NCBI GenBank assembly: GCA_900128565.1
Contig: LT635985.1
Span: 1-26,739 of the forward strand
Direction of reading: 5' to 3'
Origin: Stramenopiles sp. TOSAG23-6
Taxonomy: Eukaryota > Sar
DNA: 26,739 bases
Each line of letters opens with the position of its first letter. Positions within the stretch are counted from its first letter, which is position 1. This document shows positions 62 through 26,739 of the stretch, one piece after another. A model generated the notes under the pieces. It had not been told where the DNA came from. It made no database searches and saw nothing but the letters and a program-made list of their open reading frames with translations. The position numbers and the translations under genes are program-made.

Positions 62-2351
62 GGTGGTAATTGTCTTGGATCAAAAAGAGTCGATACAGAA
101 GAAGCACTAGAAATCCAGGCATCAATATATTTTCTTCGTACAACAACTTCCCATGATTCATTATCAAAAATACTCAGTAGGGGAGGAAGTTTGTATTTTT
201 TCAAAAATTTCAATAATTTGTGAATAAATTTTTGAAATGTATTTGTCGATAACCCTAACCCTAGTATATTTGATTCATCGGATGGCTCATATATTTGTAA
301 AACAATATCCTGCGTTTGACCCCAAATTTCACATTCCATACTTTTTCCTTCATATTGATTTTGTATCACTATTTTATCAACAATTCCAAAATTTATACGA
401 TCAAATACTTGCATTGGTGTATCATCGCCATCATACCAATGACCTGTAATAAATATCTCTTTTTTACTAATATTTAATGCAAGAAATTCAGCCATATTAT
501 AGCCATCCTTTTCATGCGGATGATAACATGTATTGTGAAAAAATATTTCTTTTGTCTAAAAGCATCATTGCGTTGTTTGTTAGGTACAAAATTTTCTAAT
601 ACAAAAAAATACAAATTTCAAATTTCAATGTTTTTTAACCCTTAAAAAAATGAATGGGGAGTGAAATTTGAAAAGCGATTCCAACTGTAGGTGAAACGGG
701 TAAAACGTTCGATGATTGGGAAATATTATTTCTGGATAATGACGATGTTGTGTAGTATACCACCAACTATATGTCATCAAAGGAACAGATAAAACAGAAA
801 CATCAACACGAAATCCTTCACATTCTTGTACGTATTTTGTTGCATTGTGTACAATATCTTCCATTGATAAAAAAANACTTTTAGGTGGTAAATTTTCAAG
901 TATATTTCTCCCATATTCTGCAATATACTTTTGATTCGAAAAATCCCTCGATTTATAATTTATAATACACTGATACACAACGAGAGATACTGCAATAAGT
1001 AATGGACAATAATAAATATTCCCAAATTTGAAAAGTTTACTTTGTTTTGATGATACCAAAGTGTAATCAAAAACATGTTGAGTGACATTAAAAAATCCAA
1101 CACCTGAGAAATAAAAAACAACAATATTACACTGTTGCCAAAATCTTTTGTATACACCTTGTAATAATGGATTTTCAGTATCCATATTTGCTAAATAACT
1201 CATAACAAATAAGTACAGAAGAGTCGATATACAAAGTATAACTCCACTTTTCTTTTTTTTACATGTACAAAATGTACCAATGATAGCCAATACTATTGAA
1301 ATTATTCCACTTTCTTTTGAATGAAGAGTATAAAAATAGTCACGAAGTCGCAACCACACATATATATTATCATCTATATCTCCATTTGTATCAGTTAATT
1401 GAAATGTACCATACTCCATGCGTAAAAAATGTGTCAAAAATCCTGAAAGAGTTGTTTGGTCACCCCAACCATCTTTTCGTTTTAAATTAGAAGCATACAC
1501 TAAATATAGATATGGGAGAAACCCACAGAAAGAACTTACTGTTAGCCATAGAACATGTATTGTAAAAAAAAAAAATCGAAATTTGTTAGGTACAAAATTT
1601 CGTACGAAAAAAAAAACAATTGAAATTCATAATGAAAACGTACAATACGTATCTTTGAACGAGTAGGGTTAGGGATTGAAAATAGACAGTACAAAACCCA
1701 AATTGCTATAGGTATAACAAGAAAAATTATGGTATGCTGATTTGATAATCCTAAACCACACAGCAGTGCACCAATGCAAGCATCACTCAGTAATGTAGTT
1801 GAGTTAATGTTCATTCGCTTTTTTTCATTTGTATTTTTTTGTTGTAGTAGAAAAAAACTAAAGTGACTTTCAAAAGAAAGAAACTGAAGTAAAATAAAAA
1901 CAACAAACAAATTATTCAAAGCAAAAACTTCACCCTGAACAGCATATAACCAAATTGTAGGAGAAAATGCGAATATACCAGCAGCATATATACCACTTGC
2001 AATACAAAATAAAAATGTTTTCTTTTTCAAATGGACCAAAGCAGGATCAGAAACGCTACTAAAAGTATAAAACATTGAAATGAAAAGTCCTCCGGCAGCA
2101 AGAGAGTCACACAAAGCCGAAAACATATTTATTCTAAAAGCAGGACTTCCACCAAGCAAAGGTAAGCGATAAAACATAGCCGCAAGTATCGTCCAAAGCG
2201 GATAACCAGGAGGATGTGCTGACCCGAGATTACACGCTGCTGTCATCAACTCTCCACTATCACCACCAGGAACACTTGAATATATAGTATTCAAATAGAT
2301 TTTGAAAACTATTGCTATAAAACATAGTGCAATACTAAGCACTTTAATCAT
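1..2351 (-). CDS. TMEM260: TMEM260-like protein (DUF2723), 3' partial, three exons seen
   Basis: Members of this family are ER membrane proteins; human TMEM260 is an O-mannosyltransferase for plexin, MET and RON IPT domains. Exon 1 is 2351-1644 and carries the family signature SVPGGDSGEL followed by AHPPGYPLWT and several hydrophobic helices. Exon 2 starts at 1554 and continues in frame through FLPYLYL and WGDQTTLSGFL, both typical of the family, then a luminal part with PLMTYSWW. Exon 3 runs from about 527 off the left edge (FITGHWYDGDD). The exon 1-2 join is fixed by conserved sequence. The exon 2-3 join is unresolved, because exon 2 meets a stop at 627-625 and no good GTATG lies before it. 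An N at 876 hides one residue. The visible C-terminus ends in Lys-Lys-Thr repeats, which I do not expect in this family. Transcribed divergently from the gene at 2733. Confidence 0.85.
528..640 (-). mobile_element. introner-like intron 2 of the TMEM260-like gene, 5' boundary uncertain
   Basis: In sense direction it carries the family core TTTTGTACCTAAC and ends TTCACAATACAT at 528. Exon 3 needs the frame TGT-TAT-CAT. No GTATG or GTACG precedes the in-frame stop of exon 2. A GTTAAAAAAC at 639 is the only GT nearby and would need the acceptor to fall one base earlier (ATACA). Confidence 0.55.
1555..1643 (-). mobile_element. introner-like intron 1 of the TMEM260-like gene (89 bp)
   Basis: Starts GTACGTTTTCATTATG, has TTTCGTACGAAA and TTTTGTACCTAAC, and ends ACAATACAT. 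Removing exactly this piece joins ...RI to VLWLTV in frame, and the downstream residues match the family. There is no AG at the acceptor. Confidence 0.85.
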
Positions 2352-2732
2352 TTGTATAGATTTGACTTTTCCTCCGTTTAAATAAATGTGGAAAGTTTTT
2401 AATTTATATACACAGTTCCAGGGTCGATATGATTCTTTAATAAAAGTCGATCTGACTGATCGTGATGATCGCGGTCAATCGAAAAACTCATTCAAAAAGA
2501 CCGTTACGGTATTTTTAGGTTCATCCTTCTATTCCGTCTACCTAATATATAGCTATATATAGTGTATCTACTTACATTTAGCTTGCAATATTACCTATAA
2601 CTATTGCGTAAATTAGTTTGCTTAGTACCTCAGATGTACTAGCTATATTCAAAGTGAAGAGAACTTTGGTCATTATCACGAGATACAACAACGAAAAAAT
2701 ATACAACCAATGATATCTAGGAAGTAGCAAAA
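2352..2732. promoter_or_regulatory. divergent spacer between the TMEM260-like and WW/PIP genes
   Basis: 381 bp with no coding signal. It holds a TATATAGCTATATATAG stretch near 2550 that could serve either gene, but such A/T runs are common here. No motif was recognised with confidence. Confidence 0.4.
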
Positions 2733-4076
2733 ATGGCAGATGACGTGGGACTTGATGTTGCTGTTAAACAGCAGCAAGGTATTAGAAAGTATTTCGGTAA
2801 ACGTAAATATGCTAAACCGTCACACACGAAAGATAGAAACAAAAGAATTGAAGAGAAACATAAAAAACTCGTAAATTTCTTGAAAACAGATGAAGAAACT
2901 AAATACAGTGATACATTGACCTCTCCATCAGGAAGAGAATTACATAATACATTAACGTCTCCATCAGGTAGAGAATTACATAATACATTAACTTCTCCAT
3001 CAGGTAGAGAATTACATAGTACATTAACGTCTCCATCAGGTAGAGAATTACATAATACATTAACGTCTCCATCAGGTATGGGGGAGTACAACAAAAGTGA
3101 CCTAAATAAAGAAAATTCAGTGAGTGCCCCTGATAGCAATAACTCAAGATATTCGTTACGTAAAAGAAAAAAATCACTATCATATTTTGGAACTTTATTA
3201 AAAGCTAGTATGCAAAGACTTTCTTGGAAACGCAACAAAATAGCAAAGAGAAACGATATTTGTTCTTCAAGTATAGAAAGCAATGATTCCAAAATGAATA
3301 CATTAAAAATTGACTCTAGTGAAGATATACCTGAAGATGATAGCTATTACACAAGTTATACTGACTCAGATACTGATGTAGTGATTGTTGCGCCACCGCC
3401 ACCGCCACCACCGCCACCAATAATACAATCGCCACCACCGCCACCAATAATACAATCTGACACTGATTTCATTAATAATGATTGGGAATCTCTAGCAATG
3501 ATTTCTCCTCCAGAACCTCATAGAAAATATCCTCAGAGTCCTCACAATTTTAATAATTGGATTCCATGTTGGACAATAGACGATGAAAAATTTTATTATA
3601 ATTCTATAAATGGTGAAACAAAGTGGGGGGTGGTAGATGATGTAAGTAATTATGGTGAATATAATGACAATAAAGATGATGCTTACTATAATAAAGATAT
3701 AACACAGTATGAAGAATATAATGACAATAAAGATGATGCTTACTATAATAATAAAGATATAACTCAGTATGATGAATATAATGACAATAAAGATGATGCT
3801 TACTATAATAAAGATATAACAAAGTATGATGAATATAATGACAATAAAGATGATGCTTACTATAATGAAGGTATAACACAGTATGATGAATATAATGACA
3901 ATACAGATGATGTTTACTATAATGAAGGTATAACAAAGTATGATGAATATAATGACAATACAGATGATGCTTACTATAATAAAGGTATAACACAGTATGC
4001 TGATAATAAGGAAATAGTTGCCCAAACAAAACGAAATATACAAACATGGGATATATCAGAAAAATCATTTCAGTAG
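2733..4076 (+). CDS. Repeat protein with PIP-box, polyproline and WW motif
   Basis: 447 residues, one exon, no homologue recognised as a whole. Near the N-terminus Q14-x-x-I17-x-x-Y20-F21 followed by GKRKY fits a PCNA-interacting peptide. Next come four and a half 12-residue repeats (LTSPSGRELHNT), a basic stretch YSLRKRKKS, an acidic Ser-rich part, and polyproline runs at about 221-242 (nine Pro, then PPPPP). A WW-like unit spans W276 to W298, the usual 22-residue spacing, with Y288-Y289-N290 and T296. The C-terminal proline of classical WW domains is replaced by Val. The tail is six acidic Tyr/Asn/Asp repeats of 19-20 residues. Composition suggests a nuclear, largely disordered protein. PCNA binding is inferred from the motif alone. 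Confidence 0.8.
   Translation: MADDVGLDVAVKQQQGIRKYFGKRKYAKPSHTKDRNKRIEEKHKKLVNFLKTDEETKYSDTLTSPSGRELHNTLTSPSGRELHNTLTSPSGRELHSTLTSPSGRELHNTLTSPSGMGEYNKSDLNKENSVSAPDSNNSRYSLRKRKKSLSYFGTLLKASMQRLSWKRNKIAKRNDICSSSIESNDSKMNTLKIDSSEDIPEDDSYYTSYTDSDTDVVIVAPPPPPPPPPIIQSPPPPPIIQSDTDFINNDWESLAMISPPEPHRKYPQSPHNFNNWIPCWTIDDEKFYYNSINGETKWGVVDDVSNYGEYNDNKDDAYYNKDITQYEEYNDNKDDAYYNNKDITQYDEYNDNKDDAYYNKDITKYDEYNDNKDDAYYNEGITQYDEYNDNTDDVYYNEGITKYDEYNDNTDDAYYNKGITQYADNKEIVAQTKRNIQTWDISEKSFQ
2913..3079 (+). repeat. 36-bp in-frame tandem repeat (LTSPSGRELHNT)
   Basis: Four full units plus a partial fifth, almost identical, with unit starts at 2913, 2949, 2985, 3021 and 3057. The low divergence points to recent expansion. 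Confidence 0.9.
3651..3995 (+). repeat. 57-60-bp in-frame tandem repeat (YDEYNDNKDDAYYNKDITQ)
   Basis: Six units start at 3651, 3708, 3768, 3825, 3882 and 3939. The second has one extra Asn codon. Later units change NK to NT and KD to EG/KG, so the array is slightly older than the 36-bp one upstream. Confidence 0.9.
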
Positions 4077-4163
4077 TCATTTGTTTTTAAATATAATAAA
4101 TTATTCAAATCGTTTTCTACAGAACAAGTACCTTTATTATATATTCCAGATAAAATTCAATAA

Positions 4164-6270
4164 TTAATTAAAAGAGTCAGTGCGTAAATGATAACTAGTT
4201 GCACGAGCAAACATTGGAAAATTTTCAAAATCACAACTTTTGCTTGATTCAACAGATTCTCTCCGACTATTACCCACAGAAATAGACTGATGACTCTTTC
4301 CATAATTTGTATTATTATTACTATGTACAGCAGTATATTCATTATTAATACCCTCAATATTCGTATCGACAGCATTCGCATCATTTGCTTGGATTCTTTC
4401 CAAGGCTTTTTCTGAAAGTTCCGTCCAATCACTACGCAACATTATAACTGTACAAAGAATAGACGATAGTGTCAACCCAACAGCAACTCCACACCAGAGA
4501 CCACCAATGCCAAGATCAAACACTTTCCAAAAAGCTAATAAAATACCTAAAGGAATCCCAAGGATCCAATACACACAAAACATGTATTGTGAAAAATAGT
4601 TTTTTTTAGTTAAAATATCGTTAGGTACGGCATGTACTGAGAAAATAAAATGTAGGTAAAAATTAATTTTGAAACGTACATTACTTTTGCAGCTATTGTT
4701 TGTTTTCCAATGGCTCTTAACTGACCTTGTGCAACACCATTTACTGTATCCACTATTTGATACAATGCTAACACAATCAACCATTTCTCGGTATCTCTAA
4801 TATATTTCTCTGTAGGATGAGAGAGAAAAAGAAGTGGAATATTGTGTCTAAGTAGGAACATTCCTAAACAAATTAAGAGACCCATCACAGAAGCAGCAAA
4901 TAATGATGCTTTTGAAGCAGATTCTGCGTTTCTTATTTTGCCTTCACCCAAATCATTTCCAATGACAATAGAACAACCAGTGCTCAACGGTAGAGTAAAT
5001 GCCACGTATGTAAATGCTGTACTATTCATTAAAGCAGCATTCACTGCGAGAGCAGTGGTTGGATCAGGTAACATTGCAGCTAAAAGATTCAATAACTCAA
5101 AAGCCCATGTATTGTGAAAAAATATTTTTTTTTTAGGTTTTAAAAAAATTCGTTAGGTACAAAATTTTGTACGAAACAAAATGTAGGTAAACAATTCAAT
5201 TTTGAAAACATACACCATTCTAAACCTATACTCAAAATTGCAGGACAGCCATATTGGAGTATTTGATATAAACCTGACAAATTCATAATTTCCACCCATA
5301 TAGATCGTCGTGGTATACATGGTTTATGAAGATCATAATAAGTTATATACAATATAGAAAGAATGACACGTAATATAGATGTAATTGACTGAACAACTGC
5401 ACACCACTCAAATCCAAGGTTACTCCCCCAATTCCCTAATATTGAATCCAACGAACCATTCAATAATACAAGTGTGAGTCCAATATTAAAAACTAAAGAA
5501 AACATCGCTATCCACATAAAAGGTTTTACTACACTACGAGCTGACATTGTCTTTCTAATGAGTTCATATAATATAGTGAACGGTACACCAACTAAAAGAC
5601 AACGGCAATATTTTCCAGCTAAATGGCTTATATGAGCAGGTACGTGAACAAATAAAAGTACATTACCTGAGAAATATCCAAATATAGTTGTTGGAATCAT
5701 AAGAAGGGACGCTACCAATGAAGCCCTCAAAAAATATACACCAAGCAAGTCAAAGCGATTTGCCCCTGCTGCTTGAGTACTTAGTGTATCCAGGGCAGCT
5801 ATTAGACCAAGTAGTAATGATACGCCAAACACATTATTAAACATTGTACCTAGAGAAGCAGCTGCAACAAAATCTTTGCCTTGATATTGACCCACCATGG
5901 CTACACCTGCAACATTTGGAAGAAACTCAAACACAGATGTCATCATTATTGGGAAGTACAAAACTGCTATACGTTTTAGTTGCACTTTCCAACGTGTATC
6001 ACCCTCATCAGCACCACCAATTTCATTATAATGTAAAGTATGTTGAATGCTAGAATCGTCTGATAAACTAGGTAATCTATGCGAATGTCGAATGCTAGAA
6101 ACACCAGCTAAAGTGGGTGGTCTTGGTATTAAGGGTGAGTCTGGAATTCTTGACCTATGTAATTGGTTTGATCCCCTTCGATTTCTAGAAGAGTGAGGAC
6201 TTAACTGCTTCATCATTGGACCTAATACTTCCCCTGATACAGTCCAAGACGCCATCTTCAATTCTACCAA
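4164..6270 (-). CDS. MATE family multidrug/toxin efflux transporter, three exons
   Basis: MATE proteins export organic cations or metabolites against H+ or Na+ in the plasma or vacuolar membrane. Exons 6270-5214, 5106-4680 and 4581-4164 join in frame to 633 residues. A Ser/Pro-rich N-terminal extension of about 90 residues precedes the transmembrane core. The core shows the expected hydrophobic segments and eukaryotic MATE landmarks such as GLEWWAFELL (rebuilt only across intron 1), AQGQLRAIGKQ and GIGGLWCG. A hydrophilic Asn/Ser-rich tail of about 85 residues follows. Start: Met at 6270; a second Met (MASW) at 6255 is equally possible. Convergent with the WW/PIP gene, 87 bp between stops. 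The family is certain and the substrate unknown. Confidence 0.92.
4582..4679 (-). mobile_element. introner-like intron 2 of the MATE gene (98 bp)
   Basis: Starts GTACGTTTC and ends CACAATACAT. The core is drifted but has CCTAAC. ATG is duplicated at the two borders, so the exact cut can slide, but the product KVMFCVYW is the same. Confidence 0.85.
5107..5213 (-). mobile_element. introner-like intron 1 of the MATE gene (107 bp)
   Basis: Starts GTATGTTTTCAAAATTG, carries TTTTGTACCTAAC, ends CACAATACAT. Excision restores GLEWWAFELL, a conserved MATE stretch. It shares a TTTACCTACATTTT block with the other MATE intron, so the two may be closely related copies. Confidence 0.88.
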
Positions 6271-10261: not shown

Positions 10262-10298
10262 AAAAACAATTAGTTGACAATTTTTATATTTTTTTTAT

Positions 10299-13200
10299 TT
10301 ATTTATTTAGACACAAAGCTGCTTGTTTCCGTATACATGGATTGGCATTTCTTAATACACACTTAGTTAGTATATTTTTGTCACCGGCATGTTTTAATAT
10401 TGATTGTGCAGTTGAAATCACTTTGTTGGATGGATCATTCAAAGACCTTAAAACTATAGCAAGTACAATTTTCTTTTTTAATACTGGGATAGTAGGGTTA
10501 GGGCTACTTCTTGACATTTTGTGTAATTTGTATAAAACTTGTAAAGAAGTACATCGTATATCTACGTTATCATCAAGTGTTAAACGTCTTAATAATGTCA
10601 CAATTCGAGATAGTAATGTATTGCAAGTTTTATCGATTTCTAAAGTACTTAATACAGAAATAAACGAAACTCGAAGTTTTGAAGACTTTGACTTTGCTGC
10701 TATATCTATAACCCATGAAACACCTTTGGACCCCATTTGCATTAGTGCGGATGCAATAATACGCGATGGAACTTTTGATGATACTAAAGTAGTTTGAATT
10801 CTAGTGGTAGAATCAATTTTATATTCTTGTTCTAGTAATATTCTCTCACTGCTCATCTTGTCATCAATAGTATTGTCAAGTAACCAATCCTCTTTAGGAA
10901 ATGATTTATAGATACAATGAAGCAAATGTGGAATAGCAATTTGATGTCCCCATAAACCTAACACAGCAACTGTAGACGTTCTCACTAACCAAAAATTATC
11001 AGCAAGGGATTCTAACAGACATAAAACAATTTTTTCAGAAAGAAGAGTATTTGTTTTTACTTGTTTCTCCGTCGTGTTTTTATTATTACCATTTATGTTA
11101 CATTGATCATATAAGTCAACTGTTTGTCTAATAACTGGAGAACCAAATGCAGTCACCGTTGCATTTCGGATGGATTGCTCCTTATCACAAAGAGTGACAA
11201 AGAATGCTTGGATCACTTGAATGAGTTTAGGTAAAGGCAGTTGTATAGTACTTAATGTAGCTATTGATGCAATACAAACATCTTTATCTAAATCTTGAAG
11301 AGAGAATAATAGTGCATCAATAATTTTACAATCCATTGAACTGTCACAAAGCCATCCAATCGATGATATTATTTGACGTTTTGGATTTTTACTGGTTTTC
11401 GTAGCATTACTATAATCTCTTTTGATTGCATCATCATCAATATCATCATCAATGTACATTCTCTCAATAGGTATAATATTTGTGTAATCAAAACTTTGTT
11501 TTTCAAATATTCTCTGAAAAGAATTTAATATTTCTTGTGGATCTAAACGGAGAGTATAATGATAAAGTTCTGAATGTTGTACGTTCCAGTACGTTTTTAA
11601 AGGACCAAAGTTAAAATCTTGCCCAAACGAATTTCTAGTCAATTCATATCTAAATTCAGAAATTGAAAAAACTTCAATCTTTTGTAGTTCTTGTATTTTT
11701 TGTATTTCTCCACGGCCTTTTACATAAATACCATTTGGAAGAATATTATTATCTTTATATAAATTGCTAATTGTAGATGATGTATATGATTTAGTGTCAT
11801 CTACGCCATTTATACTTTTGCGAGTTTTAGGATATTTAGAACAAAGTTTAAGTTCTACTATTTGCTTTTGTTTTTCGATTCCATAATTTTTGTTTTTTTG
11901 CTTCTTTTGTTTTCTTTCATAATCATTATCCACGAAAATGTTTATATAAGATCGTCGTTTTGTATGAAAGTCTATACCTAAAGCCCAACAACAAATGCGT
12001 TTCACTAAAGAGGTTGTTTCAGTATTACACATATGATATACTAAAATATTTACCCCAGAGCATGGGAGAGTACGCAAAGCCCATCCAGCTGCAATCTTAC
12101 ATTTATGGCGTATACTACTTTTAGGGTTCTCTAATAAAAAACGTTCTAAGATCCCCCCAACTCTAATTACAATTTGTGCATACTGTTTATCAAAATCTGT
12201 GGCAGTCATAGATTTTCTCGTTTCTGTAGTGGAAATTGTGCAAAATACGTATCCTAGAGATATTATCATAGATAATTTTGTCTTTGAACAAATTACAATA
12301 TCCATCTGAGAACAAAGTAAAGGTATAATACATAACTGTTGAATTTGAGGCAAATTGCAGAGGTGTGTTAATATCGCCTTATCAAGTTCTAATGTGCCAT
12401 CTTTTATGACCAACAAACATTCTTGTATTCCTAGAGTTCCTAGAGCAATTAATACATTTAAAATTTCACTTCTTTGTCTTACTAATAATTTTTTTTCGTG
12501 ACTTATCTGGGGCAGAGGGTTTTTATATTTTTCAGCTGAATTTTGTTTAACATTTGTGGAATTTGTCGAACTTTGCTTAATTTCCTCCAAAACAATGTGA
12601 AAACATCGCTTTATTTCAGGTAGTAATTTGATACATTTTTCGCCTAACCTTGTGATGAACTTGAACAAAAGTGTATTAAATTCTATACTATTTTTTTTAT
12701 ACTCTAGAAGAAGTTTTGATTTACAAAGTGGCAAAAACTCACGATTAAAAAAGTCATTATTTTGCCTATCATTTACTAATTGCTCGACGTATTGACCATT
12801 TGTCAGTTCAAAGCATAATTCAGATAATGCGTATATGCAATCAAAACCTTTTACCATTGTACTGTTTGCTATTTGATCTAGTAATGACCGAACTCGTTTT
12901 AATGTATTTTGGAAAAATATTTAAAAAAAAAATCGTTAGGTACAAAATTTCGTACGAAAATAAATTCGATTTTTTGTTTAAAAAAAAAATAAAACATACA
13001 TGCCACACAGTATGGTAACTTATGTTTTGCATCTTTATTTATATCTTTCATTGATTCATCTTTTGAAGCATTCAAAGTGACATACTTTAAATAAGGTGAA
13101 CTAGAAACTAATGTTGATGGTGCAGTATAGTCATTGAGAACGTCTTTCATTAATGGTGCAGTAGAATCACCGAGAACGTCTTTAATTTTAAACGGAAACT

Positions 13201-15846: not shown

Positions 15847-16013
15847 AATAAATAAACACAATTACTCTTCAACAAAAATATTATCCAAAATGTAGACCTC
15901 ATTGCTGTTTCATCAAAGCCTATAACCCTACTAACCCTAACCTAATAAATAAACACAATTACTCTTCAACAACGTGTCCTTTATACTTCATTGTTGTTTC
16001 ATCAAAGCCTATA
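15847..16013 (-). repeat. Duplicated SHMT 3' end separated by telomere-like filler
   Basis: The coding end of SHMT plus its 3' flank (15944-16013) recurs in drifted form at 15847-15924. Shared parts include CACAATTACTCTTCAACAA and TTTCATCAAAGCCTATA. Between them lies AACCCTACTAACCCTAACC, two to three TTAGGG-like units. Confidence 0.85.
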
Positions 16014-17702
16014 GTTGGAAACTGACGACAAAAATCAGCAACTTCGAGCTGTAAAGATTTCAGTTTACTATCATATTTTCCCTCTGAAAGAGAGTCTTTA
16101 AATGCTTTTAAAGTTTTTTTTCCCGTACTGGCAATCACGTCATCTTGTATTTCTTTCGCAAGACAAACCCCTTTATCAACAAAATGTGCAATCATTGTAA
16201 AATCTTTCTTCACTAAACCACGTGATGTCATCGTTGGACTTCCTAAACGTAATCCAGATGGTTTTAATGCACTTTTATCTGTAGGAACAGTATTCTTATT
16301 TATTTTGAAAAAATATTTCAATAAAAAATTTTGAAAATTTGTTAGGTACAAAATTTACTATGAAAAAAAATAAAAAATCGATTTTTTTTTTTTCGGTAAA
16401 AAAAAAAAAATAAAACATACATTTGTTGATATATTACAACGTTCCAATACAAATTCACAGCGTGCTCCATCAACTCCGCGAGAGGAGAGAACATCAAGAA
16501 GTAATAAATGATTATCAGTTCCACCCGAAACCATCGAATATCCAACATCTTCAAAAGTATGTATTTTGGAAAAATATTTCAAAAAAAAAAAAACTAAAAT
16601 TTGTTAGGTACGAAATTTCGTACGAAAAAAAATCGAAATTGAAAAAAAAAAAGAAACATACATCAGCCATAGTTTTTGAATTGGAAATAACTTCTTCCAT
16701 ATATCCTTTAAATTCAGGTGAAGCAGCTTGTTTCAAGGCCGTCGCGAGTGCAGTGATAGTATGATTATGAGGTCCTCCTTGACATCCAGGAAAAACAGAA
16801 AAATTGATCGGATCTTCCAAATTATAAAAGATTTCTTTTCCTTTTTTTGTAGTCGATCTCAAACCTTTACGATAAAATATCATGGCACCACGAGGACCAC
16901 GCAATGTCTTGTGTGTCGTTGTAGTGACAATATCAGCATGATCAAAAGGACTTGGTGTAACACCACCAGCAACCAATCCGCTTATGTGAGCCATGTCAGC
17001 TAAAAGATATGCACCAACACTATCAGCAATCTCTCTCATACGAGGATAATCATAATTTCGAGAATACGCACTTGCACCAGCAATAAGCAATTTTGGACGG
17101 ATTCTCTCTGCCAAAGCAGCACAAGAGTCGTAATCAATTCTTCCTGTTTTCACATCCAACTGATATCCGAAACTTTCAAAGTATATTGAAGTTGCAGATA
17201 TTTTCTTCGTTGGAGTTTGATACCCATGGGATAAATGTCCACCATGAGGCAAATCAAGACCAAGTATGCGATCATGAGGCTTTAAAATTGCAGTATATAC
17301 GTGAAAGTTTGCCGGAGAACCAGAAAGTGCCTGTACATTGACACCCCAGTCGTTTGGATCAAGTCTGAATGCTTCTAGTGCACGTTTTTGACACAATAAC
17401 TCGGATTGATCGATATACTCATTCCCTCCATAGTAGCGTGCATTTGGATACCCTTCTGAGTATTTATTTGACATTACCGAACCAAGAGCATCATATACAG
17501 ATTGAGACGTCAAGTTTTCCGAAGCAATTAGACAGATACTGTTCCTCTGTCTATTTTTTTCTTTTTCAATAATGTCGCATACCTCAGGATCAGTCTCAGA
17601 AAGCGGAGCATTCATAACACTAACCCAGTGTGGAACTGTAGAAAATGCCCGACTGCGAGCAACTACGGATATTTGGCGACGCCATACCGATATTAAAGAC
17701 AT
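15959..17702 (-). CDS. SHMT: Serine hydroxymethyltransferase, mitochondrial, three exons
   Basis: PLP enzyme that converts serine and tetrahydrofolate to glycine and 5,10-methylene-THF. Exons 17702-16662, 16558-16421 and 16297-15959 join in frame to 505 residues. The PLP-binding lysine is K265 in [34 protein letters not shown] and the C-terminal [11 protein letters not shown]...RLGSP block are canonical, the last rebuilt exactly at the second splice junction. The start at 17702 is preferred because it yields a presequence ([20 protein letters not shown]) free of acidic residues and ending near AFSTVPHW, typical of a mitochondrial signal. An upstream in-frame Met exists at 17768. The enzyme implies a working mitochondrial one-carbon pathway. 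Confidence 0.96.
16298..16420 (-). mobile_element. introner-like intron 2 of SHMT (123 bp)
   Basis: Starts GTATGTTTTATTTTTTTTTT, has TTTTGTACCTAAC, ends TTCAAAATAAAT. The acceptor differs from the usual ATACAT, yet excision restores the invariant N-K-N-T-V of SHMT exactly. Confidence 0.92.
16559..16661 (-). mobile_element. introner-like intron 1 of SHMT (103 bp)
   Basis: Starts GTATGTTTC, has TTTCGTACGAAA and TTTCGTACCTAAC, ends TTCCAAAATACAT. Joins KTMAD to [13 protein letters not shown], a conserved SHMT stretch. AT is repeated at the borders. Confidence 0.92.
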
Positions 17703-17958: not shown

Positions 17959-20900
17959 TTAATTACGACGCATTTGCTCCCTAACCAAGGCAAGCATTTT
18001 TTCTTCTGTATTGACTTCTAAATTTCCAATATATTTTTTTGATTTTTGTTTTACTCTTTTTATGTTACTAAAGATATCATGTACCTTTTTAACAAACAAT
18101 TTTGTACTTTCTGCAAATGCAAGTACATCTCTTGAAAAGTTTAGAACATGTACGGCTGGTAGTTCATTTTGTATAGCTAATTGATACTTTAGTTCAACTG
18201 CATCTAAATATTTTTGACTTTTACATACTTTCACTGCAGCTTGTGTGACAAAATGTTTTGCTGAGGCATTGAGGAGCATATATTTATCATTATTCGTTCG
18301 AAAAGTTTTTTCTTCAATATTTTGCCATACACGATTGATCTCTTCAAATATATTTCCCTCTAAATTTGGTTGTGTTATTTTCATTTTTTCTTTATTTTCA
18401 TTAGAGTTAGGGTTCTCATTATTTTCATGTAGAGAAATATTCTTTTCAAATAAATCTCTTGGTACATAATTCCATCCACCTATTTTAGCAAATGTATACC
18501 CTGTTTCATGAATATTTTCCCTGATTAAAGACAGAATTTCACTAGATTCTTTCAAATATTTCACGCGATGATCAAGTCTTATTCCATATAATGATTTCAT
18601 TTTTACGAAAAATGTGTTTACTTTTTCCAAATAAATACTTTTAATATGTACAATATAGCGTAGTCTATAAAAAAAGCGACGCCAAGCCGTTTGAATTATA
18701 ATGGAAGAATGATTTCTTTTTTCATGTAATTCTTTCAACCTTCTCTCTTCGGGGGGTACGATGATTTGTTGATACAGTGATCTAGTAATAAAACCTCTAA
18801 TATGTGTTTGTGTTTTATGGATCCAATATTTTATCAATAATTCAGATTTCAATAATTCATCACCTATTCCTAACTGTTGTGCCAATTGTCGTTTTGATAT
18901 GAAATCATTTATAGCTGACTTATCCGTTCCATGTGTTGGAAAATATATGTCAAATTTGATTTTTTTGTTAGGTATGAAATTTAGTATGAAAAACACTATA
19001 GGTGAAAAATTTATAATGAAAACGTACATGTTTTGTTCGATCTTTCATCTTTTTTTTCCATCGCAAAACTAAAATACTTTGTGCTGCTATAAATATTTGG
19101 AACGAATTTGAAATTAATCGCATACGACTCCAATTAAGTATACAATTTAAACTACACCATCTAAGCCATTGATCAATTGAATGTAACGTTGTAGCTTTGC
19201 CAAATAATTTTGTTGACCCTAAAGACCAAAAAATGTCGTTTTTGCCTAAATGAGAAACTTTATTTGATGGAAGTGCATGAGCACATACCGCACTGACACC
19301 TTTACGAGGCATTGAGTCTTTTGCTATGGGTGGATCCATAAGGGCATGTATACTTTTTGGTACAATTACATCATTCCATAGACTAGAATAGCTCATTCTA
19401 AATGGAAAATTTCGTTTTTTAATTTCACATACTTTAATCATTCCAGTATACAACAATTGTCTGTACACTGTTGAATGGTTAAAACTACACAAACCATCAA
19501 TTGGGCGATAGTGTATTTTATTTGGATTAATACATCGGATGAAATGTGGATTTGTTGTACGTAATGTAGAAGACAATGTCGATATGGTTTTTAATGTTTT
19601 TCCTGCGAGAGTATTTTTGTCATCATTATATATTTCATTAAATATAGTTACAAGCAAAGGTATTTTTGAGGTCTTCATTATCGATTTTATTTGAGTCAGA
19701 TTTGTATCATTATTTTGACATAAGAAGTTGGTTGCATTATACTCAATTTTACCAACGTAATGAGTAATACAAAATGTATTGCCATACTTGGCATGTGTTG
19801 AAAACATTGCGGATGCTTTTTGTATCGTAGAGTTTGTTGTATGTACATTTCCGATTTTACCAGATTTTGTAGAATTTGTATACGAATTTTTCATTTCCTG
19901 TACAAAAGCTTTACCCATGTTGTTTTTACCCATATTATCATGAAAATTATATATACTCTTTTCTTTGATACGTGGTAAAATACCTTGGAATTTTGTACAA
20001 TTTTTGGATAATAAATTTTGACAAGGTAAAGTATCCAAATCTTCTAATGTATCCATAGGCAATTCAATACATTCCTGTTGAAATACACTTACTTCAGATT
20101 GAAACACGAAATCATCCAATATACCTTGAAGTTTTTCATTTGCATAGTTTATACATAATTCATAGAGAGTATTTTTTGGTAAAGATTGAAACCCAAATAA
20201 ATCTAAAACACCAATAAAAGAATCACTTTCTTCATTTGTTTGTAATGCAGTATTACAAACATTTTTGACTAACCAGGAGTAAATACGCTTATATATCTCT
20301 TTTGATATTGAATTACGACGGCATTCGGCTGTATCAGTAGACTGTATTGGCATTTTAGCGAATGATTTACCTGGAAGTACAATCGTATCATTTAGTAGCA
20401 ATGTTGTATACACGTCCCTACTTAGTCCTAATAAATCAGCAACTTCATTAGCTATATTTTGGTTTACAATGGCACAACTACTCATACTATTATCAGTATC
20501 ATTACAATCATAAAATTGTATATTTTGGTTTTTTAAAATACTTGTCAGAAGTTTCCATAAAGATATGCACGTTGATGCTGAAACACCAAGTAGTTCAAGT
20601 GAAGCCTGTATTGTGAAAAAGTATTATTTCTCTTCTACACAAAATATTAGATATGAAATATATTGTTTTTTTCAGAAAAAAAAAAAAAAAAATTCAATTT
20701 CAAAATTTAAAAAAAAAAGAAACATACCCGAACGCCAGACATTTTTGGATCTTTTCTAGAAAGTGGATTATTCATACGATTTATATCATATTCTTCACCA
20801 ACACCATGACCAATGAATGTGGAACCACCATGAGTAAGTTGTGAATAATCTTCACAAGTACCTAAGTGAAATTCATCACCTAAAGTAAAATCATCTTTGT

Positions 20901-22037
20901 TTTGTGCTCTTAAAAAATGATAAAAAATATGAAAACATCGTTCACCCAGCGCATAGTTGCATGTATTTTGGAAAAATATTTCAAAAAATTGTTAGGTACA
21001 AAATTTCGTATGAAAAAAATTTCGATTTTTTTGTAAAAAAAAAAAATAGATAAAAAATTGAAAAAAAAAAACTAAAATGTACATATTCGTGTCACATCTA
21101 AAAAATAATGTTGGACAAATGCACCAACAATACAACCTTTTTTAAATAAAAGTTTCGTGAAAAGGCCAACACACGAAGCATTATCATTTTTGTTTGTTTT
21201 GGCATGTCCAAATGCTTCAAGGAGTGGCGAAATTCCACAAATTTTCTCTATAATTTTTGTTTGAGAATTTCTAACAGATCTGTCAAGACTTTTATTTGAA
21301 ATTTTTACCAAATGATGAATTAAAAGATCATTGATAGTTGTCTTTCCAGAACCAGATTCCCCAGAGAGTACACAACTCTGATTATTCACGTTGCCATTTG
21401 TTCCGTATAAATTTCTATATATCGTTTTTACTTTTTTATAAAAGTAGTTGATTCGAAGTTTTGAATGTTTTGGGTCATGATGAAGTGTTCGAGTATCCAA
21501 CAAACTCATTTGAGGATTTAAACAAATAAGAATGTCACCAACACTTGTATAGGGTTGGTAATCTTCGACGAAGCGACGACCTAAAAGTCGCAGAAGACTA
21601 ACGTTGCCAAAGCCATTTACTGTAGAAATATCATCAGGAATCATTTCAATGGGCAAGTCGTGAGAGTCATCATACGGACAAACCTCATCTAATGAAAATA
21701 TAAAAGTATCATTATGTTTTTGTTTTGATATTTGTATTGTACATGTATTATCATTATTGTTAGCAGATAACAAATATCCAACAGCAAACAACTCTGTACA
21801 CGTTTTCACCTCAGGACCTTTGATGCAGGGACCTGGGCATTTGCCACGCTCTTGATACTCTTTAAGTTTAAGTTTCTCCTCATTATTATTTCCATTTTGT
21901 GGAAATCCAATTGTTTTACTACTGAAATTTATACGATCTAGAAACTTAGTTCGATATGGATCGTCTCTGACAACATCTGCAGCAGAATACCAAGAACCTT
22001 TCTTGTCAATACCAGTGGGATAATATACTTTTCTCAT
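17959..22037 (-). CDS. Divergent myosin heavy chain with altered switch regions, four exons
   Basis: Exons 22037-21083, 20960-20728, 20605-19028 and 18930-17959 join in frame to 1245 residues. Motor landmarks: P-loop GESGSGKT at 226-233; EAFGHAKTNKNDNAS leading to switch I; GERCFHIFYHFL after splice 1; LCINYANEKLQG; IRCINPNK; and an IQ motif (IIIQTAWRRFFYR, about 999-1011) for one light chain, then a short helical tail ending at MRRN. Two key positions are changed. Switch I reads NDNASCVGL where NxNSSRFGK is usual (Arg to Cys289, Lys to Leu292). Switch II reads DLFGFQ where DIxGFE is usual (Glu to Gln536). The class cannot be assigned. It may bind ATP but hydrolyse it poorly. Confidence 0.9.
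18931..19027 (-). mobile_element. introner-like intron 3 of the myosin gene (97 bp)
   Basis: Starts GTACGTTTTCATTATAAATT, has CATACCTAAC, ends TTTTCCAACACAT. Joins MKDRTKH to GTDKSAIND in frame, between the end of the motor/converter and the IQ region. Confidence 0.82.
20606..20727 (-). mobile_element. introner-like intron 2 of the myosin gene (122 bp), GT-AG ends
   Basis: Starts GTATGTTTC and ends TTCACAATACAG. The core is strongly drifted (CATATCTAATATT in place of TACCTAAC). It is the one recognisable copy with an ordinary AG acceptor, and its exon 1 ends in G. The last base of the intron mirrors the last base of the preceding exon, as it does (T/T) in most other copies. Confidence 0.8.
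20961..21082 (-). mobile_element. introner-like intron 1 of the myosin gene (122 bp)
   Basis: Starts GTACATTTTAG, has TTTTGTACCTAACAA, ends TTCCAAAATACAT. Excision joins DVTRI to CNYALGERCFHIFY, matching the conserved GERxFHIFY of myosins. Confidence 0.9.
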
Positions 22038-22295: not shown

Positions 22296-24497
22296 TTAGC
22301 CTTCTAATACAAAAAATTGATTCGCAGCTTTTTGTTGCCGATCCAAAGTTGAATTTTGCTTGTTAATTCTTGGACGAAACGTGACAGGATCTCTTCTCAA
22401 GGTGACTCCAAGTTGTTTCAAGAAAGTATTAAACCCACACTCAATATCACTTGGTTTTTGAACTGTACATTCCACACTTGGTTTACCCTCAAAAGTAATG
22501 ACACGATCAAACAGACCTGACGCCATGAGTAAATCATGCTCAATCACAAAACCAGTAACACCAAGGTGATTAATAATCCATCTTCGAATGACTTTTGTGA
22601 CTAAAGCACGTTGTTCACAATCAAGAAATGCAGATGGTTCATCAAGAAGATACACTTGTGCAGGAACACCAAGGCAAAGCACAATAGCTAGACGTTGTAA
22701 TTGACCACCAGATAAAACAGATACTTTACACTTGACCAATTCATCCATACCAAGAGGTTTTAAAACATGTAAACGAAAAAAGCGATCAGAAAGACTTTTG
22801 TTGATACGAAGTTCCATGAGTTCTTGTACAGTTCCTTTGAAGCCACGTAATTTTGGTCCAAAATGTTGTCTCTTGAATGAAACACCTAAATCATGTAAAG
22901 ACATTTTCTTATTTTTACAAGTTAAAGGAACATTAGGGTTAGGGTTACGGACTTTAGCAAGACGTTGTTCTGCACTGCTGGATGGAACAGTAGGAGGATT
23001 CTTATCATCACCCAATGCACCTGCAAGGTGCTTCATGAATGTCGATTTACCACAACCATTCTCCCCTAAAAGACCAATGATTTCTCCAACACGAAAAAAG
23101 CCCGGTTCAATATTGAGAATAAACCCTGGAGTTTCGCTACAATTTTTATGTTTTTTCATGTGAATTTCACGAAGTCTTTTTACTTCATCCGGATGCGTTC
23201 CTTTTTTAATACGTAGACGAGGAGGACGTTGTGTAAGCTCAATCCGTTTTGAAGGATATGAGATACGATTATCACCTTTCTTCAACTTCCGGTTTGAAGA
23301 TGTTTCTGAGTGTTGACCATTTTCTTCAAAAGCATCAATATTTTCAGTGCTTAAATTTTGTGGTGGTTTGAATACCAAAGGTTCTGCACGAAAACGAACA
23401 TTTTCAGCTTGAAGGTACCCTGAAAGAAACTGGTTGATTCCACATCCAACATTTGAAGGTTGAGCAACAACTCCATAAGCGCTTGCTTCACCATACAAAC
23501 ACACAATTGAATCAGAGACATAATCAAGAACAGATAAATCATGATCAACAACAATAACAAATCGAGTAGGTACGCGTCTCTTGTTTGAAATGTTATCTTT
23601 CTTTCCAGTAGATTCTTCAAGTAGTTCTCGTATAACGTGAGCCACCGCAATTCTTTGCTTTACGTCCAAAAATGCGGAAGGTTCATCAAAAAAATAAATT
23701 TGACGATCCACCAGACAAGTACAAGCTACTGCCATTCGCTGAATTTCACCACCCGACAAATTACTCACGGTTCGATCAAGTATATTTTCAAGACCAAGTT
23801 GTTTCACAATTTTATCCAGCATACCTCGCTCATCGCGTCTCTTCAACACATCACAAACTTTCATGTGTTGTAACTTTTTTACAAAGTTAGAATCAAGCTG
23901 TGGCTTTGTAGTCGGACAAATGCGATCTTCCAGAACACCCAACATATACGACTGAAGCTCTGATCCTCGGTAATATTTTACAATGTCCAACCAACCAGGA
24001 GCTTCAACTTCCGCTCCAAGGTTTGGTTTCAATCGTCCTGCCAAGATGTTTAGTATAGTACTTTTCCCAGTTCCATTAGAACCTAACAACCCAAGTACCG
24101 TACCTTTCTTTGGTGTTGGAAGACCATGTAGCCTGAAGCAGTTTTTACCGAAAGAGTGAGTTGTTGCTTGTAGACCAGAGGGTAGCTGTACAACTTTGAC
24201 CGCCCCATCCGGACAACGCTTAGCACGCATTAGACAAGCTCCACATGCCTCTTCAATGATTACAATACGTTTCTTCTTCACAGTGATACATTCCGCAGGA
24301 CATGATCGAGCAGCCTTTCTCAAATAATCGAAAGCTCGTGAATGTGGTTTACATAGATCTTGGTCAAGAATAGCAATACGTTTCTTCTCGACTTTGCCTT
24401 TCTGATTACGTCGAAGAGACGTCAAAGCCGAGGAAGCTTTAGCAGCGACGAGGAACCAAGGCCGCCAAGCCGGAAGCAGCAACTGCTTCAGCAGCAT
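22296..24497 (-). CDS. ABCE1: ABCE1/Rli1 ribosome-recycling ATPase with degenerate Fe-S domain
   Basis: ABCE1 splits post-termination ribosomes. 733 residues, single exon. NBD1: Walker A GSNGTGKST at about 139, LSGGEIQR, Walker B FFDEPSAFLD, and HDLSVLDY. NBD2: GENGCGKST, LSGGQLQR, LLDEPSAFLD, IEHDLLMA, and a canonical end (RRDPVTFRPRINK). All ATPase motifs are intact. The N-terminal ferredoxin-like domain normally has eight cysteine ligands. Here the equivalents present are C49, C66, C85, C88 and C95. The second and third ligands are missing (CKPHSRAFDYLRKAARSC), and the seventh is R91. Neither cluster keeps four ligands. A 40-residue N-terminal extension rich in Leu, Ala, Arg and Lys, without acids, resembles a targeting presequence. 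An insert in NBD2 contains RNPNPNV from a telomere-like motif. Could be a paralogue of a normal ABCE1. Confidence 0.95.
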   Translation of the reverse strand: MLLKQLLLPAWRPWFLVAAKASSALTSLRRNQKGKVEKKRIAILDQDLCKPHSRAFDYLRKAARSCPAECITVKKKRIVIIEEACGACLMRAKRCPDGAVKVVQLPSGLQATTHSFGKNCFRLHGLPTPKKGTVLGLLGSNGTGKSTILNILAGRLKPNLGAEVEAPGWLDIVKYYRGSELQSYMLGVLEDRICPTTKPQLDSNFVKKLQHMKVCDVLKRRDERGMLDKIVKQLGLENILDRTVSNLSGGEIQRMAVACTCLVDRQIYFFDEPSAFLDVKQRIAVAHVIRELLEESTGKKDNISNKRRVPTRFVIVVDHDLSVLDYVSDSIVCLYGEASAYGVVAQPSNVGCGINQFLSGYLQAENVRFRAEPLVFKPPQNLSTENIDAFEENGQHSETSSNRKLKKGDNRISYPSKRIELTQRPPRLRIKKGTHPDEVKRLREIHMKKHKNCSETPGFILNIEPGFFRVGEIIGLLGENGCGKSTFMKHLAGALGDDKNPPTVPSSSAEQRLAKVRNPNPNVPLTCKNKKMSLHDLGVSFKRQHFGPKLRGFKGTVQELMELRINKSLSDRFFRLHVLKPLGMDELVKCKVSVLSGGQLQRLAIVLCLGVPAQVYLLDEPSAFLDCEQRALVTKVIRRWIINHLGVTGFVIEHDLLMASGLFDRVITFEGKPSVECTVQKPSDIECGFNTFLKQLGVTLRRDPVTFRPRINKQNSTLDRQQKAANQFFVLEG

Positions 24498-24537: not shown

Positions 24538-24954
24538 GTTTAAGGATTTGGTCATTGTGATACAATTAAATTACTGTAGCTGTTTTGAGTTTTCTGAAGT
24601 TCGAACAAGACAGAGAGCAAGGAGGAGGTGCGCATCATGTTTTTTAGTACACCGCGCGACCATTCATTCGATACCCGGTACCTTATAGTAAACTGACTTC
24701 ACAATTATTCTTGTCATACTTAAATGATTAAATCCTCTTACTTTTCGTTTATTCAAGACAAGAAGACAAAATATTTTATAATCGCTTATAATAGGAGGAA
24801 TAAATATGACTTCGCTTTGGTACGACTTTTTGTACTTTTAGTACCTTAAGAAAATTTTAATCCAGTTGTAAGCCCTAATAGTAGTCTATTGCAATTCTAC
24901 TATTCTTTGTATACTCTTTGTATAATTTTTGTACTGATAACTTGATAACTTTGA
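24538..24954. promoter_or_regulatory. spacer upstream of ABCE1
   Basis: About 400 bp between the ABCE1 start and the stop of the next - strand gene. It is GC-richer near ABCE1 and AT-rich beyond. It must hold the ABCE1 promoter and the 3' end of the neighbouring gene. No motif was recognised. Confidence 0.4.
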
Positions 24955-25911
24955 TCATTCATGTTTTTCATTTTCTTTCCCATTGTGTTTTTTCTTATAA
25001 AAATAATACATTCCACCTAAAATCATTAAGGTCATTATACCTAATGGAATGAGTGATGATTCATGTGGTACAATCAGTGAATATGGATCAGGACTATTTG
25101 TAAGTGTTATGTATTTTGGAAAAATATTTCAAAAAAAAATTTTGAAAAATTGTTAGGTACAAATTTTACTATGAAAAAAAAAAAAAAAAAATTCAATTTT
25201 TTTTGTAAAAAAAAAAAAAAAAAAAATTCAATTTTTTTTTTAAAAAAAAAAAAAAAAAAAACGTACATAATTTCAGTAAATATTGGATCATCTAACATCT
25301 GTTGTTCCCAGATCAATTTTGTTGCTACCAATGGTTCTGCATAACACCAATTTACACCTCGCCAAAATTTACCTCCAAGAGCCCAATATTCTTGAACACC
25401 AATTGTTAAATTATATCCAAGTATTTTGAAAAAATATTTAAAAAAGAAAAACCCTAAAATTTGTTAGGTACAACATTTTTATAAAAAAAATTTCGATTTT
25501 TTTGTTTAAAAAAAAAAATAAAACATACAATTAAATAAGGACTTTTGATATATCTATTTAATTCACAATGAATTAAAGTATCATCGGTTGAAGTTGATCT
25601 TTTTCCAAAAGCAAAACTATGGTCTTTGGAAAAATATTTCAAAAAAAATTCTAAAAAAATTTGTTAGGTACAAAATTTCGTATGAAAATAAATTCGATTT
25701 TTTTTTTACCGAAAAAAAAAAAAATAAAACATACATAACCAAATAAATTTAATCTTTCAGGATGACTTCGGATTCCACCAGTATAAGCAGGAAGATCTAT
25801 TGGAACATCAGTATTACATATATTGTGAAACAGTTTGGAACGTTACATTGAATGATGAATTTCATTTTTTTTTTTTTTTTTTTTTTTTTTGGAAAAAAAA
25901 TTTGTTTTAAA

Positions 25912-25942
<31 letters not shown>

Positions 25943-26739
25943 GAAATTTATGATGAAAACATACTCTTAACTTTACAACGCATCACAATTGAATTTCTAA
26001 AATAAAATGATGTCCTAGAAGCATCACAGCATTGTAAACACCAACCAATATCTAAACCAGCTGGATTCTTTGTACTTAATGATGTAAATGAAAGAATATT
26101 AAAAAAATTTCAAATATTTTGTTAGGTACAAAATTTTCTACCAAAAAAAAAAAAAAATCAAAATTCATGATGAAAAAAACATAAACGTTGATGTCCAATG
26201 ATAACCTTTGCCATCAAAGGGATTCCCGCCATTTTCATCTGCACGTGTACAATCAAGTTGACCGGGTAACCCATCATTATCAGTACTAGATAAATCATAC
26301 ATGTATTTTGGAAAAATATTTGAAAAAAAAATTTTGAAAATTTGTTAGGTACAAAATTACGTACGAAAAAAAATTTAGACTAAAAATTGAAAAAAAAATA
26401 AATCATACATGGCACAAAAAGCTGGTTCCGGATCGTTTTGGTTGATATTACGCCTGCGTGGTCTAAATGAATACGCATATACTTTGTGAAAATATTTTAA
26501 CTTTTTTTTTGTTTAGTATCTTAGGTACAAAATTTCATACCAAAAAAAAATATAGTTTGTGAAAATATTTTAATTTTTTTTTAGTATCTTAGGTACAAAA
26601 TTTCGTACCAAAAAAAAAATTCATAATAAAAATGTACATCACACTGTGGATTATATTGACAAGCTAATTCACACCTCCGAGCACATGTATTTTGGAAAAA
26701 TATTTCAAAATTTACCAAAAAAAAAAAAATTGTTAGGTA
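24955..26739 (-). CDS. Type I membrane protein with PAN/apple-like segment, 5' partial, eight exons
   Basis: Exons 26684-26638, 26476-26409, 26300-26187, 26083-25965, 25817-25735, 25618-25529, 25418-25267 and 25108-24955 all join in frame to about 275 visible residues. The first visible part, CARRCELACQYNPQCDAYSF followed by FCAMYDL, has the Cys spacing and aromatic pattern of a PAN/apple ligand-binding module. The ectodomain has further Cys (GWCLQCCDAS, IHCELN, NWCYAE) and one N-glycosylation site (NLT). A single helix near the end (LIPLGIMTLMILGGMYYFY) is followed by a basic tail KKKHNGKENEKHE. This predicts a cell-surface or vesicle receptor/adhesin with a short cytoplasmic tail. No family assigned beyond PAN-like. 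Exons average about 100 bp, and all introns belong to the introner family. Confidence 0.78.
25109..25266 (-). mobile_element. introner-like intron, last of the PAN-like gene (158 bp)
   Basis: Starts GTACGTTTTTTTT, ends TTCCAAAATACAT, core TTTGTACCTAAC. Enlarged by three A/T homopolymer runs of about 17-20 bp. Joins FTEI to ITLTNS. Confidence 0.85.
25419..25528 (-). mobile_element. introner-like intron of the PAN-like gene (110 bp), TT end
   Basis: Starts GTATGTTTTATTTTTTTTTT, core TTGTACCTAAC, ends TTTCAAAATACTT. The preceding exon ends ATT, so the two bases after ATAC (TT) match the exon end, where most copies have AT. Confidence 0.82.
25619..25734 (-). mobile_element. introner-like intron of the PAN-like gene (116 bp)
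   Basis: Starts GTATGTTTTATTTTTTTTTT, core TTTTGTACCTAAC, ends TTCCAAAGACCAT. AT is repeated at both borders. Joins LNLFGY to SFAFGKR. Confidence 0.82.
25818..25964 (-). mobile_element. introner-like intron of the PAN-like gene (147 bp), drifted core
   Basis: Starts GTATGTTTTCATCATAAATT, ends TTCACAATATAT. The TACCTAAC core is replaced by AATGTAACG. Contains a T run of about 25 bp on the + strand. Exon frame (KVK-S-NTDVP) fixes the junction. No sliding gives GT-AG. Confidence 0.78.
26084..26186 (-). mobile_element. introner-like intron of the PAN-like gene (103 bp), odd ends
   Basis: Starts GTTTATGTTTTTTTC, with core TTTTGTACCTAAC. The 3' end is drifted to TTCATTTAC (or ACAT two bases on); both choices give HWTSTSLSTK. 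Confidence 0.65.
26301..26408 (-). mobile_element. introner-like intron of the PAN-like gene (108 bp) flanked by a 14-bp direct repeat
   Basis: Starts GTATGATTTATTTT, has a GTACCTAAC core, ends TTCCAAAATACAT. ATAAATCATACATG occurs on the + strand at both 26290-26303 and 26398-26411, so the splice point can slide over 14 bases with the same mRNA. Confidence 0.85.
26477..26637 (-). mobile_element. introner-like intron of the PAN-like gene (161 bp) with a duplicated 3' half
   Basis: Starts GTACATTTTTATTATGAATT, ends CACAAAGTATAT. Contains two copies of the GTACCTAAG / AAAATATTTTCACAAA half about 73 bp apart, so two possible branch-point/acceptor units. Confidence 0.82.
26685..26739 (-). mobile_element. 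introner-like intron of the PAN-like gene, cut by window edge
   Basis: Only the 3' half is visible: TACCTAAC core at the right edge, then AAATATTTTTCCAAAATACAT. The donor lies outside the window. Confidence 0.8.

Follow-up and report, generated by a model that had tools for sequence, protein, structure and literature searches.

A family of introners with mostly non-AG 3' ends, coinciding with a target-site duplication, in a putative MAST-3 genome

Introner copies in the window and their host genes

The window analysed here is the whole of contig LT635985.1 of Stramenopiles sp. TOSAG23-6 (26,739 nt), one contig (C35) of an assembly of 408 contigs and 8.03 Mb, and the genes on its minus strand are interrupted by a family of introners, i.e. 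similar introns that have spread as copies through unrelated genes. Two window proteins match gene models of GSMAST32, which rules out Amoebophrya as the source; GSMAST32 appears to be the genome of a MAST-3, an uncultured stramenopile, a label that comes from the source and leaves the subclade unsettled. The minus strand contains 17 TACCTAA cores and two core-less copies that have both ends; these 19 copies of a single family of about 100 nt make 18 interruptions, one of which is compound (two cores) and one of which is cut by the contig end. The hosts named by Pfam are TMEM260, MATE, HEAT, SHMT and myosin, with a last gene in addition, and these results bear out a preliminary description of the sequence in which 19 similar introns had been reported from unrelated hosts.

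All copies lie on the minus strand; 16 intervals were fixed, with boundaries placed by hand from the end motifs, and flanking dinucleotides are written below with a slash. The copy in the TMEM260 region (528..640) is recognized by its core at 580-586 and its 3' end CACAATACAT at 528; position 640 is approximate, the 5' end not being fixed. A second copy lies in TMEM260 at 1555..1643 (89 nt, TT/AT), and the spliced open reading frame (ORF) of this gene encodes 586 amino acids. The MATE gene, with a spliced ORF of 518 amino acids, has its first introner at 5107..5213 (107 nt, GT/AT) and its second at 4582..4679 (98 nt, AT/AT). The copy at 12902..12999 (98 nt, AT/AT) joins a repeat-bearing minus-strand ORF (12899-13879) to the HEAT ORF; the "basic repeat gene" previously listed as a host drops out as a separate one if the repeat genes on the plus strand are meant, as no copy was found in these. 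SHMT (15959..17702) yields a protein of 505 amino acids once its two introners are removed, the first at 16559..16661 (103 nt) and the second at 16298..16420 (123 nt), both AT/AT. Myosin (17959..22037) likewise becomes a single frame of 1245 amino acids once three introns are removed: introner 1 at 20961..21082 (122 nt, AT/AT), an introner-like intron 2 at 20606..20727 (122 nt), which has lost its core, retains both ends and terminates in a 3' AG, and introner 3 at 18931..19027 (97 nt, AT/AT).

The last gene (24955..26739), whose 5' end lies beyond the contig, has a frame that stays open through 7/7 junctions to the stop. Its copies lie at 25109..25266 (158 nt, AT/AT), 25419..25528 (110 nt, TT/TT, a target duplication other than AT), 25619..25734 (116 nt, AT/AT), 25818..25964 (147 nt, introner-like, core lost, GA/AT), 26082..26184 (103 nt, with the 5' end decayed to TTATG and the boundary set by hand) and 26301..26408 (108 nt, AT/AT); the compound introner with its two cores occupies 26477..26637 (161 nt, AT/AT), and the 3' part of a further introner (26685..26739) is cut inside its core by the contig end.

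The exact motif TACCTAAC occurs 15 times on the minus strand and not at all on the plus strand, and the four exact end motifs are likewise found on the minus strand only; in plus-strand genes read in sense there is no core and none of these end motifs, a search that did not extend to decayed copies. A loose scan matched the plus strand once, near 5164, and this match is the MATE copy's palindrome. No other introns were seen in the minus-strand host genes, where GT-AG introns were not searched for systematically. ABCE1 (22296-24497) is a single open frame without a copy.

Copy number, shared descent and insertion footprint

The family is abundant in the assembly. The 16-base core ATTTYGTACCTAACRA has 1,612 exact matches and its reversal none, a genome-wide count of the kind that the preliminary description had proposed as a check; the 20-mer GTTAGGTACAAAATTTCGTA has 814 matches, and again none when reversed. 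Contig duplication inflates the raw counts: across 29,998 bases C13 differs from C14 by a single gap, and the inverted duplicates C2 and C27 are perfect over 26-28 kb; these artefacts of assembly or amplification double the copy counts. An allelic polymorphism between C13 and C14 was rejected, as one gap in 29,998 bases makes them one sequence. In a 298-kb sample, picked in part for core hits and duplicated contigs, removal of duplicates reduces the exact 16-mers from 126 to 84, from which we roughly estimate about 1,000 unique exact cores genome-wide, a number between the duplicate-corrected figure and 1,612.

A loose pattern allowing two mismatches gave 222 raw matches in the same sample, or 150 after duplicate removal; its reversal gave 31 raw matches against the 222 forward ones, so part of the 150 is due to chance. 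Subtraction of 40 hits with no findable end or less than 30 nt of flank, and of three more duplicates, leaves the 107 copies analysed below.

These copies have a median length of 99 nt, excluding the last dinucleotide, and a mean GC content of 19%. In sense order they comprise GTAYGTTTT, a T-rich spacer, TTTCGTACGAAA, TTTTGTACCTAAC, a T-rich tract and CCAAAATAC or CACAATAC. The 5' end is GTATG or GTACG in 85/107 (GT itself having been demanded by the search), TACCTAA is conserved at 95-100% per position, and the distance from the end of CTAAC to the 3' end has a median of 40 nt (103 copies). The consensus ends match in inverted orientation over about 4 bp (GTAY/ATAC), a candidate terminal inverted repeat; the ends form 2.39 pairs against 1.10 expected from shuffles, and the value is higher than expected in 55/75 copies. 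Inverted ends had been described earlier in a longer form, ATGTAT/ATACAT, of which about 4 bp belong to the element itself, the longer form taking in the duplicated dinucleotide.

The similarity between copies exceeds what unrelated AT-rich introns would show by chance: identity to the nearest neighbour has a median of 0.84 and a maximum of 0.97, versus a median of 0.625 and a maximum of 0.67 for shuffled copies (n = 25). "Near-identical", the wording used at first, is too strong for a family with a nearest-neighbour median of 84%, even though copies in unrelated genes reach 97% identity over about 91 nt; the similarity across such introns extends to both ends. Identity in the 5' spacer predicts identity in the 3' spacer (Mantel r 0.267, P 0.0004; 5,000 permutations, 71 copies), and the end subtypes are linked (32:16 versus 1:9, Fisher P 0.0014; 58/107 copies classifiable). 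This co-variation and linkage indicate common descent, as common splice signals alone would not give them.

A footprint of insertion surrounds the copies. In 74/107 copies the dinucleotide preceding GTAYG is identical to the one that follows AATAC, compared with a mean of 51.1 and a maximum of 64 in 20,000 shuffles, and among nine flanking positions compared an excess of matches is seen at these two alone. The matched flanks are AT/AT in 58 copies, GT/GT in 6, TT/TT in 6, AG/AG in 3 and CT/CT in 1; within the window, flanks match in 11/16 fixed intervals. We read the matching flanks as a 2-bp target-site duplication that is partly eroded, which favours insertion at the level of DNA. In the search for empty-site paralogues, matches that crossed the junction of joined flanks were taken, without a formal filter, as the copies' own loci or neighbouring introners.

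Two features of the distribution of copies were also observed. An introner core lies in the first 60 bases of at least 11 contigs (C4, C6, C11, C13, C14, C15, C19, C23, C29, C30 and C38), and the end of the window itself (26733-26739) falls within a core, so the introner family itself probably breaks the assembly. Neighbouring copies less than 1,500 nt apart in the sampled loci are separated by a median of 152 nt, with many distances of 79-145 (55 values); this spacing could perhaps reflect nucleosome linkers.

Removal from coding frames and the predicted 3' splice end

Removal of the element together with one duplicate, tested with 60 nt on each side, leaves the frame open over the junction in 95/107 copies. 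Shifting the junction by 1, 2 or 4 bases lowers this to 47-51, and shifts of 3 give 97 and 90; left unspliced, 19/107 are open, and read in antisense, 39/107. The lengths fall into the three classes modulo 3 with 39, 36 and 32 copies, so retention would break most genes. The copies sit in coding sense. The restoration of frames by exact removal, the copy number and the common ancestry of stretches outside the splice signals support the original proposal that they spread as copies.

Protein comparisons agree with the junctions. Spliced SHMT aligns to PDB 7e13 and 6smn, and to four full-length relatives, with no gap at either junction, and the same holds for the 80%-identical P0122. In myosin, the first two junctions show no gap when the spliced protein is aligned to myosin VIIa (9dfv), the third lying outside the query. 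Seven spliced proteins were scanned with Pfam across their junctions: the Aa_trans, Peptidase_M16_C, Myosin_head and UCH_1 domains continue through a junction, DEAD_2 crosses one with insertions, Helicase_C_2 crosses one that lies five residues from the domain start, DHBP_synthase stops short of its junction, and one protein has no family.

Both SHMT introners are mishandled in the existing gene models, which also remove coding sequence at other places. The window SHMT is 99% identical to gene model P0155 of GSMAST32, which at the two junctions reads MADVYVGYSM and ISTNNTVP, with TFED turned into VY and a lysine missing. The EukProt gene model GSMAST32.ASY1 (P0001) equals ABCE1 at 584/585 aligned residues, and 148/733 ABCE1 residues fall in gaps where the model cut out coding sequence. 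Many parts of SHMT are also removed as false introns by P0155. Among the best 120 matches of each protein search, those from the species itself were gene models only, with no transcript.

The lack of AG at most 3' ends is the most unusual feature of the family: the 3' dinucleotide is AT in 77/107 copies and AG in 4/107. The registers GT...AT, TG...CA and AT...AC would give identical mRNA, and the flanks that differ were used to choose between them. Among the best 80 copies, 17 have mismatched flanks, with AT at the 3' side only in 12 and at the 5' side only in 2; for all 107 copies, 33 are mismatched, with corresponding numbers of 19 and 10. The triplet YAY is present at the 3' end in 64/80 and before the 5' end in 41/80 of the best copies. 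The upstream dinucleotide thus varies as exon sequence does and the downstream one converges on AT, as expected if the downstream copy ends the intron, and with moderate confidence we assign the register GT...AT.

SHMT allows this assignment to be compared with AG acceptors in detail. For its first introner, the two AGs within 70 nt both fail to restore the frame. For the second, 2/6 AGs fit the frame, but the one at +3 would remove a lysine found in 4/4 full-length relatives aligned, and the one at -60 would retain 60 nt of the element. More broadly, 29/95 in-frame copies have no frame-opening AG from -45 to +30 nt.

U12-type introns have the branch site TCCTTAAC close to the 3' end and start with ATATCCTT. 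The commonest copies here do read AT...AC in another register, but they carry TACCTAAC at a distance of about 40 nt from the end, with no ATATCCTT start; U12 AT-AC introns were set aside on the sequence and the distance of the branch site. U2 and U6 small nuclear RNAs were not found in the assembly in a search that had no positive control, and Rfam gave no match at the gathering score in 13 stretches totalling 145,727 bases.

Origin, mobilisation and related systems

The copies are probably best explained as an introner family of MAST-3, formed by a short, non-autonomous element that is mobilised as DNA and likely spliced as GT...AT. The proposed element is about 90-120 nt long, GTAYGTTTT...TTTCGTACGAAATTTTGTACCTAAC...CCAAAATAC (or CACAATAC). 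A copy would enter a 2-bp target (mostly AT; also GT, TT, CT and AG) and duplicate it, and would in this way create an intron, to which the element would bring the 5' splice site GTATG/GTACG, a T-rich tract and, some 40 nt before the end, the branch-site-like TACCTAAC. The downstream duplicate dinucleotide would complete the 3' end, which is most likely that of a GT...AT rather than a GT...AG intron, and because the duplicate does so the mRNA would retain its pre-insertion length. Removal from RNA would be the work of the spliceosome, and a transposase would have mobilised the element.

Several results weigh against this explanation. The inverted ends are short, and neither a presence/absence polymorphism nor an empty-site paralogue was found in the one assembly. 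The 5' dinucleotide is not AT in 39 copies, 23 of which differ at the 3' side, so either erosion has affected part of the duplications or the element also carries an AT of its own. The invariance of GT follows by construction from the search. In a loose test, 66/95 in-frame copies have at least one nearby AG that leaves the frame open, and of the 12/107 copies closed at the proposed junction, 6 are open at an AG. Finally, no transposase with introner ends was found, neither of the two DDE genes in the assembly being bounded by them. The DNA-transposon-like origin proposed at the outset is supported by the 2-bp target-site duplication, but the inverted match is only about 4 bp long and the search for a mobilising transposase was negative.

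That search returned one DDE_3 gene and one DDE_1 gene in the assembly; DDE_Tnp_4, MULE and Transposase_21 had no match in this possibly partial assembly, the last of these without a positive control. The DDE_3 gene (C298, stretch L035, 2793-4073) lies beside a host gene with a decayed introner, and was rejected as the mobiliser since no introner ends surround the transposase. The DDE_1 element (C382, stretch L037, 2852-6667; ORF 3108-6347 on the minus strand, an open frame of 1080 amino acids) was rejected because its gene is bounded by inverted repeats of another kind, CCTATTCCGGCC on one side and TAGGAAGT on the other, and not by introner ends; at one mismatch the repeat motif has three places in the genome, two of which are the DDE_1 element itself. 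Near its left end lies a degenerate introner-like core, GTACGAAA...GTACCTAA, with a spacing of 5 where 70/70 exact cores counted have 4, and this tie to the introners is a lead only. Viral carriage was also rejected: a 19-base core had no match in viral_contigs and none in the prokaryotic genome_contigs.

Spread through RNA, in which excised introns reverse-splice into other transcripts and are then copied back into DNA through reverse transcription and recombination, has been proposed for fungal introner-like elements (PMC9860276, in the part consulted) and is an unlikely source of the present family. It would account for the coding-sense orientation (95 copies open in sense versus 39 in antisense) and for the full set of splice-like signals, and it sits well with the failure to find a transposase with matching ends; but a 2-bp duplication confined to the insertion flanks is not expected from reverse splicing, and selection on insertions into coding sequence predicts the same sense orientation. 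RVT_1, moreover, was unmatched in the assembly, possibly a partial genome, in a search whose positive control matched in 3/14.

The two other explanations that we considered would dispense with spreading or with the spliceosome, and both are very improbable. Introns of Trichomonas or Giardia have unusually strong common splice signals, and if such signals operated genome-wide, introns could converge on a common appearance without any spreading; the best-conserved parts are indeed the 5' end, TACCTAAC and the 3' end, where splice signals would sit. Convergence does not, however, explain why TTTCGTACGAAA, which to our knowledge is not a known splice signal, is also common to the copies, nor the identity of up to 97% over about 91 nt in unrelated genes, the spacer co-variation, the subtype linkage and the flanking duplication. 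Ciliate internal eliminated sequences are likewise short and rich in AT, with a 2-bp repeat at their flanks, and removal by such DNA elimination, or in the manner of the nonconventional introns of Euglena, in which paired ends become joined, would fit a 2-bp repeat of which one copy is left afterwards, as well as ends that pair somewhat above shuffles (2.39 versus 1.10). The pairing is nevertheless weak, the signals GTATG, CTAAC and T-rich tract follow one another as in introns of the spliceosomal type, and DNA elimination predicts no orientation bias, in conflict with the 95/107 copies open in sense and 39 in antisense.

Introners are an established kind of element (Gozashti et al. 2022, PMC9860276), and the family described here shares much with those of that survey as far as it was consulted: similar introns in unrelated genes, short and AT-rich, in an aquatic protist, with a target-site duplication, a splice site co-opted from the duplication and an unchanged mRNA length. 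The duplications given there for earlier families are 3-9 bp, whereas here they are 2 bp and most copies have AT at the 3' end. The survey took its introns from annotation files, so families missing from annotation would not have entered it, and its main text, tables aside, has no mention of stramenopil or MAST. The main text of PMC8163842 has no occurrence of "intron"; our literature searches found no paper linking MAST-3 to introners, and no title among the introner papers listed names MAST-3. MAST-3A and MAST-3F single-cell assemblies are given as 18.9 and 21.1 Mb (PMC5778133, in the part consulted), and the 8.03-Mb assembly may therefore be partial.

The introner elements of Amoebophrya (PMC7789003, in the part consulted), to which the copies were originally to be compared, are a parallel rather than a match. 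They too are repeated introns that depart from GT-AG and carry direct repeats where they meet the exons, but their inverted repeats, which join the ends, are 8-20 nt compared with about 4 bp and a small pairing excess here, and their direct repeats are 3-5 nt, whereas our match excess covers two positions only. They also belong to hundreds of families with very varied splice motifs in a dinoflagellate, in contrast to one dominant family in a stramenopile. A likeness at the 3' end is reported for Fritillaria tunicates (PMC13326754, in the part consulted), where 3' AT is common, at 34% of introns in one species and 44% in another, and a YAY triplet stands at the 3' end and often also precedes the 5' end; the corresponding values here are 77/107 for AT and 64/80 for YAY at the 3' end. 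The main Fritillaria classes start with AG, however, while our copies start with the GT required by the search, and splicing there is known from transcripts, whereas here it is predicted from genomic sequence.

This is a real introner family, in a lineage with no introner link in the literature searched, and its mostly non-AG 3' end falls on the target duplication. Many introns of this single-celled marine plankton species, whose genes standard gene-finding seems to misread, appear to derive from a mobile element. We further put forward, tentatively and as a possibility that falls somewhat short of even, that the 3' splice rule of the MAST-3 lineage moved from AG towards YAT, so that an AT-preferring element makes seamless introns at nearly all insertions with the duplicated target as acceptor, one family constitutes nearly all introns, and GT-AG annotation hides them. 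The family would add a stramenopile lineage to those in which a mobile element has produced introns en masse; more unusual would be introners that lack AG and in which the same two bases are preferred as the target, duplicated on insertion and used as the splice acceptor. This would tie the insertion sites of an element to the evolution of a splice-site rule, in parallel to Fritillaria in a distant lineage, and surveys that start from annotated introns would miss such a family.

The window also contains coding tandem repeats in different genes, at 2911-3090 (36 nt), 3582-4037 (57 nt), 13210-13353 (39 nt) and 14880-15003 (24 nt). Telomere-like CCCTAA runs lie in or beside genes at 248-262, ~15918-15940 and ~22932-22945, and the run within ABCE1 encodes NPNPN.

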